DNA of 64,000 nucleotides from assembly GCA_026418175.1 (NCBI GenBank), contig JAOABX010000001.1:1-64000 (forward strand), read 5' to 3'. The notes under the pieces were generated by a model. It did not search any database. It was not told the origin of the DNA and saw only the letters and a program-made list of their open reading frames with translations. Within the stretch, counting starts at the first letter, position 1; each line of letters begins with the position of its first letter. Made by a program: the position numbers and the translations under genes. Of the stretch, positions 1 to 14,036 are shown piece after piece. The stretch is from Flavobacteriales bacterium. GTDB taxonomy: Bacteria; Bacteroidota; Bacteroidia; CAIKAF01.

Positions 1-276
1 GGTTGTGATTTGCTTTCATTCTTTGACTTATTGATATTTGTTACAGCTCTCCGTTGTAGGCCCCCTCATGCCACTGGGTTGTGATTTGCTTTCATTCTTT
101 GACTTATTGATATTTGTTACAGCGAAACGTAAGGAATTCACGCACACAGCACAGGTTGTGATTTGCTTTCATTCTTTGACTTATTGATATTTGTTACAGC
201 AAAAATATTTTATTATTCTCGATAGCTTCGGTTGTGATTTGCTTTCATTCTTTGACTTATTGATATTTGTTACAGC
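1..276 (+). CRISPR. Type II-C CRISPR array, right-hand end: four identical 47-nt repeats (1-47, 77-123, 154-200, 230-276) with spacers of 29, 30 and 29 nt; continues past the left window edge
   Basis: GGTTGTGATTTGCTTTCATTCTTTGACTTATTGATATTTGTTACAGC occurs four times without mismatch at 76-77 bp periodicity; window base 1 is the first base of a repeat; cas2/cas1/cas9 adjacent. Confidence 0.98.
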
Positions 277-383: not shown

Positions 384-1690
<1,307 letters not shown>

Positions 1691-2928: not shown

Positions 2929-2970
2929 TACCGTGAAAAATTATAAGCAAAGTTATAAAATTTCACGGTA
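2929..2970. promoter_or_regulatory. 42-bp imperfect palindrome directly upstream of the ATPase gene (copy 1)
   Basis: TACCGTGAAAAATTATAA-GCAAAG-TTATAAAATTTCACGGTA; minus strand contains TAACTTTG (2948-2955), a perfect TAnnTTTG box. Confidence 0.75.
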
Positions 2971-3038
2971 AAAATAGTTTATAAATCATGCAGCGGTAAA
3001 AATTTATGTAATTGAAAAAGAATCAAATAGACTATTAA

Positions 3039-3079
3039 ACCGTGAAAAATTATAAGCAAAGTTATAAATTTTCACGGTA
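3039..3079. promoter_or_regulatory. 41-bp imperfect palindrome (copy 2) between cas9 stop and copy 1
   Basis: ACCGTGAAAAATTATAAGCAAAGTTATAAATTTTCACGGTA, nearly identical to copy 1. Confidence 0.75.
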
Positions 3080-3086
3080 AAAGTTT

Positions 3087-6000
3087 TTAAAATTTCCATA
3101 CAATTTCTCCATCAGATTTTATTTCAAAATCTTTGCCTTCAAAAAGACAGTTTAGTTTTGCTGCTTTAAGGGATAATCCTGCCTGATATTTATCTGGATT
3201 AAAATCATTCTCACATAGCTTATCAATTTCGGGATTAGGACGTGCATCAAGATTATTTTTTAAGTAAATATCCGGTGTTCCTGATACATTAAATTTATAA
3301 ACCACAAAAACTCTGTTTTGCAACTGTTGCGTGGTTAATTTTTTCAATTCTTCCTTATTCTCTTTGTAAAAGATGGCTTTTTGCCCTACTCTGATAACAT
3401 GTTTAAGGGGTAATCCGCTGACTGATTTATTTAAATAACTGTTGTTCCATACTTCTTTAACAGAAGAGTAACCAAATTTTGCAAATTCCAATAAACTAAT
3501 GATGCGAGCTTCTCGTTTGATTTTATTCTCATGTACATTCTCGTAAAGCAGGTATAAAAAGTTTTCATCGTTTTGAACAAAAACATTTTTTTTGTGTTCT
3601 TTTTTGGGATTATGAGAGTTTAATTTTAGTGAAACAGCTTTGTTTATAGTTAGAAAACCTCTTCCAGCTTTTACTCTGCAACGAATATGACGTATACGCT
3701 TTCCTTGAAAATCAACAACTTCAGTAAGTTTCTTACCAGATTTTATTTGATCTTGAATGTGTTTTTTCAAAAGTTCATCTACTATTACATCTTTTTCTAA
3801 ATCAACTTTGTCGATGGGTTTTCTTGAAACAATCCATAATTCATTTTCCAGTGTTTTAAACTTTCCATTTTCTTTAATGGGGTAACCTTCTTTATTTCTT
3901 TCAGGAACTTTTACAGCACCGAAATATGTTTCTAGATGCAACTGCCCTCTTATAGAATCTCCCTCCATTTTCTTGATATTTCCATTTTTTGTTAGTTGTT
4001 TAACTCCTCTTTTTCTGATTATTTTCCGGGTAGGCGTGAGTGTCTTATCCCGCATGATATGATTGATTAGCACATTAGTGTCAATTTCAAGGATGTGATT
4101 TGTATTAAATTCGGGGTATGGTTTGTCATGAAAATTTATATTGGATTCTAAAGCTCGATAATATTCTTTAAGTAATTCATCACGCTTACCTGAGCCGGGG
4201 ATTAAGGTGAGGACAGCGGCATCTATGGCATGGTGGCTGTGGCGGCTGCGATCTTTCTGTTCGTCTCCTTTTATTTCAAAAATCTTTTTGAATTCATTAA
4301 CCACAGTGGCTTTTTGAACCTCTACTTTGTTAAATAACGACTTCATGTATGCCCGCGCATATTTGTTTATAATTTGTGTATCAACGAGCTGGCTGTTTTT
4401 CCACCAGTTGGGTATTTCATTCAGAGTGAAAGTTTTAACTTTTTTGTCCCAATAATCAAAATCAAATTGAAGCAAATGTCTTTCACGAACTAAATAGTTT
4501 TTTCTTTCCACATTGCCCATTCTGTTTGCTTTTTTGGTTTCGGCTTTGTTCTTTTCAATGCGTTCTTTCAATGAATCTCTTTTTTCGATCCATTTTTTCA
4601 AACGTGGTTCTATGGCCGGATAAGTAACACCATTAAAAATGAATTCGGTTTTGTAGTTTTCCAATTGTGTAGGGATCCGGTCTTTTTGAATGTTGGTGTT
4701 GAAGTAGGCATCGGCAACAGTAAGGTTTGCAAGAGAGTTATCAAATGAATCGCTTCGTTGAAATGTGTGTGCAAACTGAGTTTTTGTTCCGTCAAACAGG
4801 TCAGTTATCCGAATGGTTTTACCGGTATACATACACTGGCATTGCTGTTCTTTCCATAGGCGATATTTGTCAACATCTTCTTTCAAGGATTTTATCTGTT
4901 TATATACTTCTTCACCGTTTTCTAATTGTTCCCACCAAAGACGGAACTTGTCAATATTATCGGCATCATTTTCGTTCAGATTCGGGTATTTCTGTTTTGC
5001 TACTCCAAGTATTGCTTTAGCAAACTCTTTATTTTCTTCCTCTCGTCTTTTTTGATATTCCTGTATAGCCCATCTTTTGTTTGCATCATTCAATTCCCTG
5101 GCCATTTCAATGACAATTTTAGTTTCGGGATCTATTTTACCAACTTCTAATAAGTAATTTATCAGTTTTCTCAATTCATACATAGTTCGCATGGCCATAG
5201 GATTTTTCCATCCTTTGCTTGGCGGCATTGGGTCTCCTAACTGCATTACTTCACGTATTACTTCTCCTGTTTGCTTATCTACTACCTTTTTTATTTTGTT
5301 TGCTTTGGGATAAATATCAATGTCTGACGGATGATAGAGGTGCTTTAACTTATTGGCTTCTGCACCAAATCTTTCGTGTAAAACTTTTTTTATTGCTTCG
5401 TCAAGGCGTGGTAGTTTGTAGTAGTCAATCTCCGGATTTTTTCCTTGTCGGGAAGATGCTTTTTCTTCCGGCTGTTGCTTGCCATATAAGAAAGTAAGAT
5501 ATTTTTCCAAAACAAAATTATAGTATTCGTTCTTCTCTTCTTCCGGTTTGTTAGTCCAATTGCTTTCTCCAAAATACTGCCTGAGTTTTTGTTCAGTTTC
5601 CTTTTCAGCTAATTTTCTGATTTGTTCATCTACGCCTTTCTTTTTGTTTGAATTTGTTTCAGCGAAATATTTTTGTATCAACCCGTTTACGATATTCAAT
5701 TTTTCTTTTTGATGGTCAATACTTCTGATGGTTTCTGATATGGCTTTTTGTATTTCATTTTTGTTCTTCTCAAAATTTTCTTTGCCAAGAACTCTGGAAA
5801 GGTTAGCGAAAGAAACTGCTTCAGAATAGAGGTACCCTTCCTGTAAATAGGGAAGAATTTTTGAAATAGCGCTGCGGCTCAAAGAGCCATATCCTTGCGA
5901 AATACCTATTTCGGAAAACTGTTTGGCTTTATCATCATCCCATTCCAATACATTTTTGCAGAAAGTGACGAGTTCTTCGGGTTTGTCTTTTATCTCCAAA

Positions 6001-7424
6001 TAATCATACAACAGATGCCAGATGCCTTCAAAATTAAGTGTCCGTTTATCATGAATTTTTTTGCTTTTAAACTCATGTTTCCCTTTTTTCCATACAGCTT
6101 TACGAGTTCCATACTTTACAGTATATTCTACTTTTAGCCCTTCCCAGTTTATTCCAAAACGGTTTTCATCTGTTATGAATTTGTTTTTCCATTGATTATC
6201 AAAGACATTCATCAAACCGGCAATGACAGGACAAGCTGAAACATTCGGCTTGTTTTTATAATTAAATTCCCACTTGCCGTTTTCAGAAAACGTTTCAATG
6301 ATTTCATCGAACTTAAAGAAGCTTCTCTCATCAACTTTACCGTTGTTTTGGCCTCTTTCTGTTTTTTTGAAAAATAATTGTTCAAAAATTTTCTTCTTGA
6401 TGTCAATGGGTATCGGTTCAAAGCGATTATGTGAGCCGGCCTCCCTCCTCTGTATGTTATTAATAAAAGCCAATGCCCGAAACTCTTCAAATAGAGGGTG
6501 GCTTATGGGGATACGAGTTTTTCCTTTTTCAAGTGTGCAATTCCCCACTAATCCTTTTTGGCTTCGTAACGGGCGGACATAATAAGCTGCATGATGAAGT
6601 TTTTTGGTTAATTCATCGCTTAGCCCTTGTTTTTTACAAATAGCCAAAAACTCTTCTTCATAATACTTTCTTTGAATTACTCCGCTGGCTCTGAAGCGTC
6701 TTGTCTTGAGTGTTTCATTTGCCAGTGTGGCAATATGGTAGTTTGGATATTGTTTCTTCTTTTCTTCAATCTCTTTGTTTTCTGCATAGGTTGACTTTCC
6801 GCTTTTACGGCTTGATTTGAAACCTCTTCTTTGTGCTAAATGATAGAGGGCTCTGCCAATCATGAGTTTTCTATTTATTTCATCTTCTATAAAAGTGTTC
6901 AATAATTCACATTTTAAATCGTAAGGACTTTTTCTTATTGGTTTTGGCTCATTACGTTTGTTTGTGGACATTCCTTTAATTCCAAAATACTCTGGATCCA
7001 TAGCAAGCCATTTTAACCATGCCTCGTTATTTAGAGGATATTTTCTGCCTTTATTTTTCTTTTTCCCATTCACATCTACCCATTCACCGATACTCCAAAG
7101 CCGCAGTTCTTTTTCATTCAATGGGCACATTTTTTCTTTAATAAGTATCTTTAAAAGTTCCCATTTACGATAGCGTTTGGCATTGTATAACCTTCGTTTG
7201 CTACGATTCTTTCTTCTTTCTGCAGCAAGCGAAAACTCTCCTGATTTGCCATCGCCAACTCCTTTTTCAAAAACTATTACGCCATAATCAACAATTTGAT
7301 TTCTCAAATCATCGTGGTTTCGCTTAAATTGGGATAGAAACTCTATACGATTTTCTTCATCTGTTTCACGGATTGCCCAACCAATGGAGTTGGTGCCCAA
7401 GTCAAGTCCTAAAATTTTTGCCAT
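3087..7424 (-). CDS. cas9: CRISPR-associated endonuclease Cas9, type II-C, 1445 aa
   Basis: RuvC-I ILGLDLGTNSIGWA; Arg-rich bridge helix RRKNRSKRRLYNAKRYRKWELL; RuvC-II IVIEMARELN; HNH region MYTGKTIRITDLF...AHTFQRSDSFDNSLANLTVADAYFN; RuvC-III HHAIDAAVL. Confidence 0.97.
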   Translation of the reverse strand: MAKILGLDLGTNSIGWAIRETDEENRIEFLSQFKRNHDDLRNQIVDYGVIVFEKGVGDGKSGEFSLAAERRKNRSKRRLYNAKRYRKWELLKILIKEKMCPLNEKELRLWSIGEWVDVNGKKKNKGRKYPLNNEAWLKWLAMDPEYFGIKGMSTNKRNEPKPIRKSPYDLKCELLNTFIEDEINRKLMIGRALYHLAQRRGFKSSRKSGKSTYAENKEIEEKKKQYPNYHIATLANETLKTRRFRASGVIQRKYYEEEFLAICKKQGLSDELTKKLHHAAYYVRPLRSQKGLVGNCTLEKGKTRIPISHPLFEEFRALAFINNIQRREAGSHNRFEPIPIDIKKKIFEQLFFKKTERGQNNGKVDERSFFKFDEIIETFSENGKWEFNYKNKPNVSACPVIAGLMNVFDNQWKNKFITDENRFGINWEGLKVEYTVKYGTRKAVWKKGKHEFKSKKIHDKRTLNFEGIWHLLYDYLEIKDKPEELVTFCKNVLEWDDDKAKQFSEIGISQGYGSLSRSAISKILPYLQEGYLYSEAVSFANLSRVLGKENFEKNKNEIQKAISETIRSIDHQKEKLNIVNGLIQKYFAETNSNKKKGVDEQIRKLAEKETEQKLRQYFGESNWTNKPEEEKNEYYNFVLEKYLTFLYGKQQPEEKASSRQGKNPEIDYYKLPRLDEAIKKVLHERFGAEANKLKHLYHPSDIDIYPKANKIKKVVDKQTGEVIREVMQLGDPMPPSKGWKNPMAMRTMYELRKLINYLLEVGKIDPETKIVIEMARELNDANKRWAIQEYQKRREEENKEFAKAILGVAKQKYPNLNENDADNIDKFRLWWEQLENGEEVYKQIKSLKEDVDKYRLWKEQQCQCMYTGKTIRITDLFDGTKTQFAHTFQRSDSFDNSLANLTVADAYFNTNIQKDRIPTQLENYKTEFIFNGVTYPAIEPRLKKWIEKRDSLKERIEKNKAETKKANRMGNVERKNYLVRERHLLQFDFDYWDKKVKTFTLNEIPNWWKNSQLVDTQIINKYARAYMKSLFNKVEVQKATVVNEFKKIFEIKGDEQKDRSRHSHHAIDAAVLTLIPGSGKRDELLKEYYRALESNINFHDKPYPEFNTNHILEIDTNVLINHIMRDKTLTPTRKIIRKRGVKQLTKNGNIKKMEGDSIRGQLHLETYFGAVKVPERNKEGYPIKENGKFKTLENELWIVSRKPIDKVDLEKDVIVDELLKKHIQDQIKSGKKLTEVVDFQGKRIRHIRCRVKAGRGFLTINKAVSLKLNSHNPKKEHKKNVFVQNDENFLYLLYENVHENKIKREARIISLLEFAKFGYSSVKEVWNNSYLNKSVSGLPLKHVIRVGQKAIFYKENKEELKKLTTQQLQNRVFVVYKFNVSGTPDIYLKNNLDARPNPEIDKLCENDFNPDKYQAGLSLKAAKLNCLFEGKDFEIKSDGEIVWKF
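7390..7420 (+). promoter_or_regulatory. Candidate tracrRNA promoter inside the 5' end of cas9 (opposite strand)
   Basis: TTG (7390-7392)-N20-AATTTTTG (7413-7420; 7/8 of TAnnTTTG). Confidence 0.4.
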
Positions 7425-7426
7425 AG

Positions 7427-7537
7427 TATTTTAATTTTAATGTTTTTTCTTTAGTATTGTGTTTGCAAATCACAACAAGGCTATAAGCCGAAGAGCGATT
7501 TGCTCTTAAGCCCCGCATACTTCTGTGGGGCATTTTT
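7427..7537 (+). ncRNA. tracrRNA (5' end approximate)
   Basis: Anti-repeat GCAAATCACAAC (7465-7476) is the exact reverse complement of repeat positions 2-13; followed by hairpins GGCT/AGCC (7479-7489), AAGAGC/GCTCTT (7491-7507) and terminator GCCCCGCA/TGTGGGGC + T5 (7510-7537). Confidence 0.87.
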
Positions 7538-7547
7538 ATTATATAAC

Positions 7548-8651
7548 TTATTTCTCCACCATTCCCCACAATTTCTTATAAATTACACTTACACGCTCCA
7601 CTTGGCCTTTGGCTACAAAGCGTTCGTAAAATCCTTCTTTTCTAAAATCAGGAATCAATCGTTTCCAGGGCTCAAGGTGTGTGGTCCAGGCTTTTACCCG
7701 GTCTTCATCAACATCATGTGCATCTTTAAATTCAGCAGCAACCCGTATCATGGCTTTGAGGGTAATGCTGTTGCATACCATGTATTTATCGTTTTCCCAG
7801 GCTTCGCCCCATGCATTTTTTGCAGCTTTTAAAAAGTCGCGAATCACTTCGTAATAATATTCTGTCCAGGCCTTGGTAGCTGCTATTTCTGTATTGGTTT
7901 TCATGTCGTTGGTAATCATGCGGTGCAGTTCGTTAAACAGTTCGGCCTGCAAAATCCATTTGTCTTTGCTGCTGCGCCCACCCAAGCGATTGATGCGGTA
8001 TTGCAGCGGGCTGTCGTTTTCACTGTATAGTTTTTCTCCAATCAACGAGGCTAATTTTTTATCGGCCGATGTCCACGAAACTTTTTCATATAAGTCTATC
8101 AAATGGCTTTTGTTGATGCGGGTGGGAGTAGAATTGATAATTACAAACATTTCGGTGGCAAAATCTTCACTTTTGCCATCAAAAATGATACAGGGCACGT
8201 GAATGGTATTGGCTTCTTCAGGATTGCTACGATAAAAAAATTCTAAGGCTGCCAGGCGGTGTTGCCCATCAATAATAAAAAACTTATCGAGTGGTTCTTC
8301 CAAATTGCCTACGTTAGGCATGTTGCCAAGTGGTGTAAAGGGCAAGGTATGCGGAGTAAATAATAACACCGTGGCCGGAATAGGCGGTTGGGTAGCTGCT
8401 GTTTCGTAAAAGTTTTTAATGGCTGCTACTTTTTTTCTGGATATTTCGCGTTGAAACGATTTATCACTACGCTCAATTTTTTTAATAAATTCAGCTATTT
8501 CGTCTTGTTTAGACGTTTCTTCAGCTTCAATTTTTTCTTTGTTTTCATCGTAAAACCGGCTGATAAATTTTACTTTTCGTAAAATATCAGCAGCCGGATA
8601 GGAAGCAAAATAAAATACAGCATCTTTTTGGCGGATTTGTGTGGCTAACAT
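7548..8651 (-). CDS. DGQHR domain-containing protein (DndB-like family)
   Basis: FFIIDGQHRLAALEFF motif and downstream FVIINSTPTRINKSHLIDLY. Confidence 0.82.
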   Translation of the reverse strand: MLATQIRQKDAVFYFASYPAADILRKVKFISRFYDENKEKIEAEETSKQDEIAEFIKKIERSDKSFQREISRKKVAAIKNFYETAATQPPIPATVLLFTPHTLPFTPLGNMPNVGNLEEPLDKFFIIDGQHRLAALEFFYRSNPEEANTIHVPCIIFDGKSEDFATEMFVIINSTPTRINKSHLIDLYEKVSWTSADKKLASLIGEKLYSENDSPLQYRINRLGGRSSKDKWILQAELFNELHRMITNDMKTNTEIAATKAWTEYYYEVIRDFLKAAKNAWGEAWENDKYMVCNSITLKAMIRVAAEFKDAHDVDEDRVKAWTTHLEPWKRLIPDFRKEGFYERFVAKGQVERVSVIYKKLWGMVEK

Positions 8652-10405: not shown

Positions 10406-11428
10406 TTATTTAATTCCATTTTTATCCAATGCACGTTGGTAGCGCGTAGCATTTCTGTTATGTTCTTGCAGAGTAACAGCAAAACTATGATGCCCTGAAA
10501 AATCTTCTTTTGCACACATATATAAGAAATTGTGTTTTTCGTAATTCAATACAGCATCTATGGCATCAGGTTCAGGTATCATGATGGGGCCGGGTGGCAA
10601 CCCTTCATACTTATAAGTATTGTAAGGTGAATCAATTTCGAGATGATGATGCAGTACCCGTTTGATAGATGTATTACCATGTGCAAAAATTACTGTTGGG
10701 TCACTTTGCAGTAGCATCCCTTTTTTTAACCGGTTAATGTATAATCCGGCAATGCGTTTCCATTCACTTTTATGTACAGATTGTTCAGCCATTACAATGG
10801 ATGCTAAAATTCCTACTTCAGCCGGAGTAAGTGGAATAGTTGCTGCTTTTTGTTTTCGTTCTTCCGTCCAAAAGGCATCGTATTCTTTTGCCATACGTTT
10901 TACAAAAGCATCAGCACCCGTATTCCAATAAAATTCGTAGGTGTTTGGAATATAGAGCAATTCACAAGTTTCTTCATTCAACCCTCGTAACGTTAAAATA
11001 TCCGGGTTGCACATAGCTTGCACCAATGAAATAGAATCAACCTCTAGTTTTTTTGCAATTTTTCCTGCCAGTTGGGGGATGGAACGTACATAATGAAAGC
11101 TAACCTGAACGGGTGTTTGTTTTCCTGATTTTAAGAGGTTTACCAGCGCATTGTTTGTCATGCCGTCAATCAATTTGTAACGGCCGGGCTTGATGGATTC
11201 CGGATAACTTTTTTGTTTTGCAACCCAAACAAACCCTTTTGTATTTTTTAAGATTCCTCTTCGTTCAAGTTGCGCAACCACAGTATCGAAATTACTACCT
11301 GTAGCAATGTATAAATAGGGATCATCTTGCTGTACTTTTACATTGGGGTCATTCAGGTATCCATACCAGTGGCAGCCGCTTATTGCCGTGCTAAGAAAAA
11401 TAAAAAAAAATAAGGCTCTCAAATACAT
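10406..11428 (-). CDS. mltG: Endolytic transglycosylase MltG (YceG-like); start moved to the internal Met before the lipoprotein-like signal
   Basis: ILASIVMAEQ, IAGLYINRLKKGMLLQSDPTVIFA, YNTYKYEGLPPGPIMIP; tracked upstream extension overlaps the divergent gene. Confidence 0.92.
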   Translation of the reverse strand: MYLRALFFFIFLSTAISGCHWYGYLNDPNVKVQQDDPYLYIATGSNFDTVVAQLERRGILKNTKGFVWVAKQKSYPESIKPGRYKLIDGMTNNALVNLLKSGKQTPVQVSFHYVRSIPQLAGKIAKKLEVDSISLVQAMCNPDILTLRGLNEETCELLYIPNTYEFYWNTGADAFVKRMAKEYDAFWTEERKQKAATIPLTPAEVGILASIVMAEQSVHKSEWKRIAGLYINRLKKGMLLQSDPTVIFAHGNTSIKRVLHHHLEIDSPYNTYKYEGLPPGPIMIPEPDAIDAVLNYEKHNFLYMCAKEDFSGHHSFAVTLQEHNRNATRYQRALDKNGIK

Positions 11429-13115: not shown

Positions 13116-14036
13116 ATGAGAATTTTTTTATCCTGTATAATCTATTTTTTGTTCATTCAATGTGTATCACCTGTTAGCCTTAATCATCCTGTAAATACCA
13201 ACCCTCATGTTTTTGGAAAGCATTCTGTTAATAGATTTACGAAGTTTAAAAAAGGCGATATTTATTGGGGAGCATTTTATTTACTGGGGGTGAATGTTCC
13301 TCTTTTACAATGGAATTCTTTAGATAATTTTATTAAGTATCATAATCATTTTTACTCGAGTTTTTTATCTGCTCCACTATCAGAATCTTATTCATACAGG
13401 CCTTCGTTTATACATGGCATCGAAGCCAACATCATGGTGATGACCTTGAATACATTGTGGACAAAAACAACCACTGATTTACATGCCGTTTATACCAATG
13501 GCGATGAACGAATTATTACCGTTGATTTTAATACGTTTCAAACAGGATTTGATGTGGAATTACCAATCAGTTATTTTCGAATCGGGGTATGTAATGGTAT
13601 AACGTTCAACTGGGGTGAGTTTAGCTCTGGATATAAGTATAATCAGTTAGGTGATGATTATGTAAGTTATGCCCAGGATGTACCCATGAATGGAATATAC
13701 AGTACTCGGAGACTAGCAAGGTATATGCTAGGCGGAAGAGTTGGATTTACCTGGAAATTTGTAAAGTTTGTGGCCAAGGCACAATATATCTTTCCGGGCG
13801 ATAAAGAAAAAGATTATTTAATTCCGTTATATGATAAATTATTTAGTACAACACCCGGTTTTGGTTATTATTCTGATGGCGAAATTCCCCAGTATTTTAA
13901 TTATGCACCGGAAAATGTAAATAATTTAAATCAACAAACAGAATTAATTAGTACACCTCACGGATGGTTTTTGACGTTCCAGCTAGGCTTTGGTTTTACG
14001 AATGTAGATAATTATAAATTAAAATATTTGTTTTAA
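13116..14036 (+). CDS. Hypothetical exported protein
   Basis: 306-aa ORF with N-terminal hydrophobic segment; co-directional with neighbours. Confidence 0.65.
   Translation: MRIFLSCIIYFLFIQCVSPVSLNHPVNTNPHVFGKHSVNRFTKFKKGDIYWGAFYLLGVNVPLLQWNSLDNFIKYHNHFYSSFLSAPLSESYSYRPSFIHGIEANIMVMTLNTLWTKTTTDLHAVYTNGDERIITVDFNTFQTGFDVELPISYFRIGVCNGITFNWGEFSSGYKYNQLGDDYVSYAQDVPMNGIYSTRRLARYMLGGRVGFTWKFVKFVAKAQYIFPGDKEKDYLIPLYDKLFSTTPGFGYYSDGEIPQYFNYAPENVNNLNQQTELISTPHGWFLTFQLGFGFTNVDNYKLKYLF

Follow-up and report, generated by a model that had tools for sequence, protein, structure and literature searches.

A Cas9 of type II-C-like architecture whose HNH site lacks the acidic metal ligand and the catalytic-site lysine

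The metal ligand and the lysine of the HNH domain are usually treated as invariant in Cas9, yet the lineage formed by the protein described here and one relative lacks both and shows no sign of decay. The question raised by this locus is whether such an HNH domain still cuts the target strand by another chemistry, or whether the protein is a natural nickase or a binding-biased Cas9. The window is the whole stretch of 64,000 nucleotides that was analysed, from a Flavobacteriales bacterium, and its CRISPR features are the following.

1..276, forward strand: end of the CRISPR array, with 4 repeats (47 nt) and 3 spacers
384..716, reverse strand: cas2 (TIGR01573, E=4.7e-21)
713..1630, reverse strand: cas1, type II (TIGR03639, E=3.3e-81)
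3087..7424, reverse strand: cas9, 1445 aa, type II-C-like (TIGR01865, E=5.2e-94; Pfam PF13395 HNH_4, E=1.1e-9, matching residues 864-914)
about 7465..7540, forward strand: tracrRNA, with the anti-repeat GCAAATCACAAC, stem-loops and a terminator-like hairpin (z=-4.45)

This system looks intact and functional, judging from its genes and array. It comprises the type II-C set of tracrRNA, array, cas1 and cas2, without cas4 or csn2 among the neighbouring genes scanned; the remaining scanned neighbours encode an AAA/DUF4143 ATPase and a DGQHR protein. The array is split over four contigs of the same genome (G000), namely positions 1-276 of the window and contigs C26, C65, and C67. Genome-wide, 39 matches to the repeat were found, and the recovered spacers are all distinct (35/35). 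No protospacer was matched by the 35 spacers in phages, nor by two spacers searched against viral contigs. The tracrRNA is encoded close to the 5' end of cas9, on the other strand, and relatives have the same element upstream of their cas9. The anti-repeat GCAAATCACAAC pairs with the 5' end of the CRISPR repeat.

Several other elements accompany these genes. The ATPase gene (1753-2922) is located between cas9 and cas1, and it is separated from cas9 by two near-identical 44-nt imperfect palindromes (2930-3082; ACCGTGAAA...TTTCACGGT). A DGQHR/DndB-like gene (7548-8651) is positioned directly upstream of cas9. Close to the array, part of the repeat is matched in inverted orientation within positions 300-375 of the forward strand, and a strong terminator-like hairpin comes after this match.

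The RuvC-II/HNH segment and the residues that bear on its chemistry are found at the following positions, with the counts taken over 37 distinct HNH domains.

4410..5087, reverse strand: RuvC-II/HNH segment, residues 780-1005, part of a putatively recombined core module
4770..4772, reverse strand: A885 (GCA), at the Asp/Glu metal-ligand position (SpCas9 D839); Glu or Asp in 35/37
4767..4769, reverse strand: H886 (CAC), the general-base His (SpCas9 H840), kept; His in 37/37
4758..4760, reverse strand: Q889 (CAA), replacing the Pro at His+3; Pro in 35/37
4725..4727, reverse strand: N900 (SpCas9 N854), His+14, kept; Asn in 37/37
4698..4700, reverse strand: N909 (SpCas9 N863), His+23, the remaining metal ligand, kept; Asn in 37/37
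4686..4688, reverse strand: Q913, replacing the invariant HNH Lys (SpCas9 K866 equivalent); Lys in 34/37, Gln in the window and one relative only

The motif thus reads GCA-CAC-ACA-TTT-CAA, that is A885-H886-T-F-Q889, where relatives have E-H-T-[I/L/F]-P. A sequence-only reading of the locus had given this motif, its codons and coordinates, and the +14 and +23 spacing of the two Asn, all of which are exact; its alignment to SpCas9 holds up as well, with the His and both Asn present in every domain compared. The ββα-Me HNH domain therefore retains its general-base His and its Asn pair (H886, N900, N909). The loss of the metal ligand and the Pro-to-Gln change, both proposed in that reading, were borne out by the alignment against homologues that it had called for. 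Across the 37 distinct HNH segments of the genomes searched, the catalytic His is preceded by Glu in 33, Asp in two, and Ala in two, and the His+3 column holds Pro in 35 and Gln in two. The Ala/Gln pair occurs only in the window and in L024, two different genomes, and neither offers an acidic replacement in the ligand column. One nearby acidic residue, D892 at His+6 (Glu in L024, and acidic in these two sequences only), was considered and rejected; it sits past the His, in a loop. The change at residue 913 had been overlooked. It strengthens the case for an altered chemistry beyond what was first stated, since a catalytic-site Lys is replaced too. Q913 is located one helical turn past N909, and its equivalence to K866 rests on the alignment, since the distance of the Lys from the Asn varies by family (+3 or +4).

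The three changes stand out against an otherwise well-conserved domain. Over HNH residues 848-960, 19 full-length relatives define 14 invariant columns. Three of these (885, 889, and 913) are broken in the window and L024, identically, and all three belong to the ββα catalytic element; every other sequence breaks at most one. The RuvC site, in turn, was described as intact and is so: D8, E773, and HHAIDAA are kept in the window Cas9, and D8, E773, and the His columns 1062 and 1065 are conserved in all sequences with data. No member of the A-H type (Ala before the catalytic His) beyond L024 was found in about 1,850 genomes, in 85,462 species genomes scanned once for the pattern, or in viral, plasmid, and phage collections. 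The search set included the window's own genome and its close relatives, 388 genomes of the class and 396 of the phylum, relatives of L023 and L024, and two draws from the class of L025. With the search terms used, no report of a natural HNH-deficient Cas9 was found in the literature, which is not proof of absence.

L024 (JAKAGT010000013) belongs to the MAG Bacteroidetes bacterium WY2.bin60. Whether a whole subclade shares the motif had been left open in the sequence-only reading, and at least one relative does, at 58% identity to the window Cas9 over the full length. The identity is 59% in the N-lobe, 78.8% in the HNH domain, and 82.9% in the ββα element. In residues 780-960, pS reaches 0.86-0.90, i.e., synonymous sites are saturated, with a pN of 0.10-0.14, and the codons of H886, N900, and Q913 differ synonymously between the two genes. 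Because two sequences at saturated synonymous divergence have it in common, the A-H motif cannot be put down to a read error or to a recent mutation. Orthodox E-H pairs with 61-65% N-lobe identity share 67-78% in the HNH domain and 77-91% in the ββα element. The A-H pair is as conserved as these at a similar N-lobe distance, and it accordingly gives no sign of relaxation or decay of the HNH domain. The retention of His and both Asn in two sequences that share about 80% HNH identity is weak evidence when taken alone; the argument lies in the whole pattern. In the L024 locus, a gene resembling REP-type transposases (10410-11063) is found between cas9 and cas1. A palindromic element (TCCCGTTCCGACATC...GGCGG) interrupts two CRISPR repeats at an identical position (13170-13790), and a similar third copy adjoins a repeat fragment.

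Different parts of the window Cas9 have different nearest relatives. In a tree of the N-lobe (residues 1-765), it joins L023 (support 1.0) and then L052. In a tree of the core (770-1075), it joins L024 (support 1.0), far from an E-H clade made up of L052, L025, and L071. L023 (6001-8895) is the nearest Cas9 backbone, with 82% identity. Up to about residue 775 the two are 80-98% identical; beyond it the identity drops abruptly to 40-60%, although L023 is a low-coverage MAG contig in which a chimeric join near residue 775 is possible. The comparison with L052, which is independent of L023, gives 63% in the N-lobe versus 40% in the HNH domain. The L023 contig ends inside the HNH domain before the motif, which is thus unscored, and the start of its HNH domain resembles the E-H type. 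Upstream of its cas9, L023 seems to have the end of a reading frame similar to the DGQHR/DndB-like gene. The conflict between the N-lobe and core trees indicates that the A-H core, or its E-H counterpart, was exchanged between Cas9 backbones by recombination near residue 775. Furthermore, the A-H trait probably spans two classes, since the L024 genome falls among class-level relatives of the L025 genome (Ignavibacteria), while L023, the nearest backbone of the window, is a Bacteroidia MAG.

The HNH domain was also modelled with AlphaFold, as the sequence-only reading had suggested. The model of residues 780-1005 has a mean pLDDT of 83.5, with values of about 86-96 across the ββα region, mostly above 90. 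In it, residues 882-886 and 901-905 form strands and residues 906-913 a helix, elements that an E-H control model shares. The top Foldseek matches of the model are Cas9 HNH domains. The ββα fold is thus retained in the model with high confidence. N909 and Q913, being i and i+4 on one helix, face the same side.

In SpCas9, D839 and N863 are described as holding Mg2+ with H840 as the base, and K866 may hand a proton to the leaving group (PMC6706240, PMC9868570). The HNH Lys is called invariant across II-A and II-C orthologs in PMC6706240. With the equivalents of D839 and K866 both missing, canonical HNH chemistry cannot operate as described in the A-H enzymes. It is highly improbable that the motif stems from a mistake in sequencing or assembly, or that it drifted neutrally in a gene undergoing decay. 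Nothing but the small number of A-H sequences speaks for either of these, while the same residues recur in a second, independent genome under other synonymous codons, the 1445-codon frame is open, and the HNH domain is unrelaxed; L024 effectively refutes a sequencing error, an objection that had been raised beforehand. Also improbable is a Cas12-like mode with an inactive HNH domain, in which RuvC cleaves one strand after the other. This would reconcile a dead HNH domain with maintained immunity, and the RuvC residues are intact, but the RuvC catalytic columns show no change specific to the window and L024, and we know of no precedent for it in Cas9.

The two remaining readings are closer to each other. 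The HNH chemistry may be lost or very weak, the domain being kept as a conformational switch that licenses RuvC, so that only the non-target strand would be nicked or the target would mainly be blocked. Both the metal ligand and the K866-equivalent Lys are gone, and either change alone already impairs SpCas9: editing by D839A is substantially compromised (PMC6706240), and the activity of K866A is markedly lower (Nierzwicki 2022 as cited in PMC9868570). A D839A prime editor (PE2) still edits, i.e., the other strand is nicked, which makes it a usable nickase (PMC10063541). A purely allosteric HNH domain would, moreover, keep its fold, as modelled. This reading, however, leaves the retention of the general base and both Asn to be accounted for, as well as a ββα element as conserved as in orthodox pairs, whereas a single change of the His would be enough to make a nickase. 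The system also appears maintained, with many different spacers. Spacer acquisition by itself needs no cutting.

Alternatively, the site may have been remodelled and then kept by selection as a rewired one-metal site that still cuts the target strand, built on Asn909 and perhaps also on Gln913. This is the reading we slightly and tentatively favour, a natural non-target-strand nickase or binder being nearly as likely. Its grounds are that the catalytic His is retained together with the two Asn, that the HNH domain is unrelaxed, and that immunity based on a rich array would be expected to depend on cutting both strands. His886 would act as the base, and Asn909 would be the only residue to hold the metal, as in ββα-Me nucleases of the Serratia nuclease, NucA, and I-PpoI type; Gln913, on the same helix face at i+4, might serve as a second neutral ligand or as a phosphate contact. 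Slower cutting or an altered metal preference would be expected relative to orthodox Cas9, and cleavage of the other strand would remain the normal task of RuvC. Against the rewired site, the single changes D839A and K866A each impair SpCas9 and both positions are gone here, only two A-H sequences are known, and the Asn-only nucleases also use an Arg clamp, for which the window Cas9 offers only candidate residues. The constraint as a whole (an unrelaxed HNH domain, an intact CRISPR system whose spacers are many and different, and the transfer of the module) fits rewiring at least as well as a nickase or binder. The earlier proposal that target-strand cleavage may be weak, lost, or rewired stands, and the nickase or binding-biased Cas9 that it named is one candidate outcome. 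In a fuller scenario, possible but less likely than not, neutral ligands (Asn909 and Gln913) would have taken the place of the canonical site in one Cas9 lineage without abolishing target-strand cleavage, and recombination would be spreading this HNH cassette from one Cas9 gene to another.

If the enzyme is a nickase or binder, it would be ready-made for nick-based editing; if its site is rewired, target-strand cleavage by Cas9 can run on a different metal chemistry. With either outcome, the roles of D839 and K866 become testable with a natural enzyme.

Among known systems, the closest are the type II-C ones of Bacteroidota and Ignavibacteria, whose Cas9 (about 1400-1500 aa, E-H-T-[I/L]-P) shares the architecture, RuvC residues, and HNH fold of the window protein, and which have the same form of tracrRNA, long (47-nt) repeats, and cas1-cas2. 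In contrast to these Cas9, the HNH domain of the window carries Ala for Glu, Gln for Pro, and Gln for Lys. The ββα-Me fold is also common to colicin-type HNH nucleases, which use His ligands. In these, the third metal-ligand position is located one helical turn after the second. Q913 sits at the place of this third position, and its role as a ligand is a guess. SpCas9 nickases engineered by D839A-type changes have the same Ala at the metal-ligand position (PMC10063541); the Cas9 of the window differs from them in being natural, apparently maintained by selection, and changed a second time at the K866 equivalent. Single-Asn ββα-Me nucleases (Serratia nuclease, NucA, and I-PpoI) bind their metal via Asn, and the Gly of the DRGH motif precedes the His (PMC2653514), so that the DRGH enzymes (Serratia nuclease and NucA), as the window Cas9, have no acidic residue just before it. 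They belong to a different protein family and possess a phosphate-clamping Arg, for which R890 and Lys/Arg914 are candidate positions here by sequence only. The single-Asn features of the window Cas9 are, by sequence, the helix N909 at the ligand position and the non-acidic A885 before the His, with the general-base His and the helix Asn ligand occurring in both.
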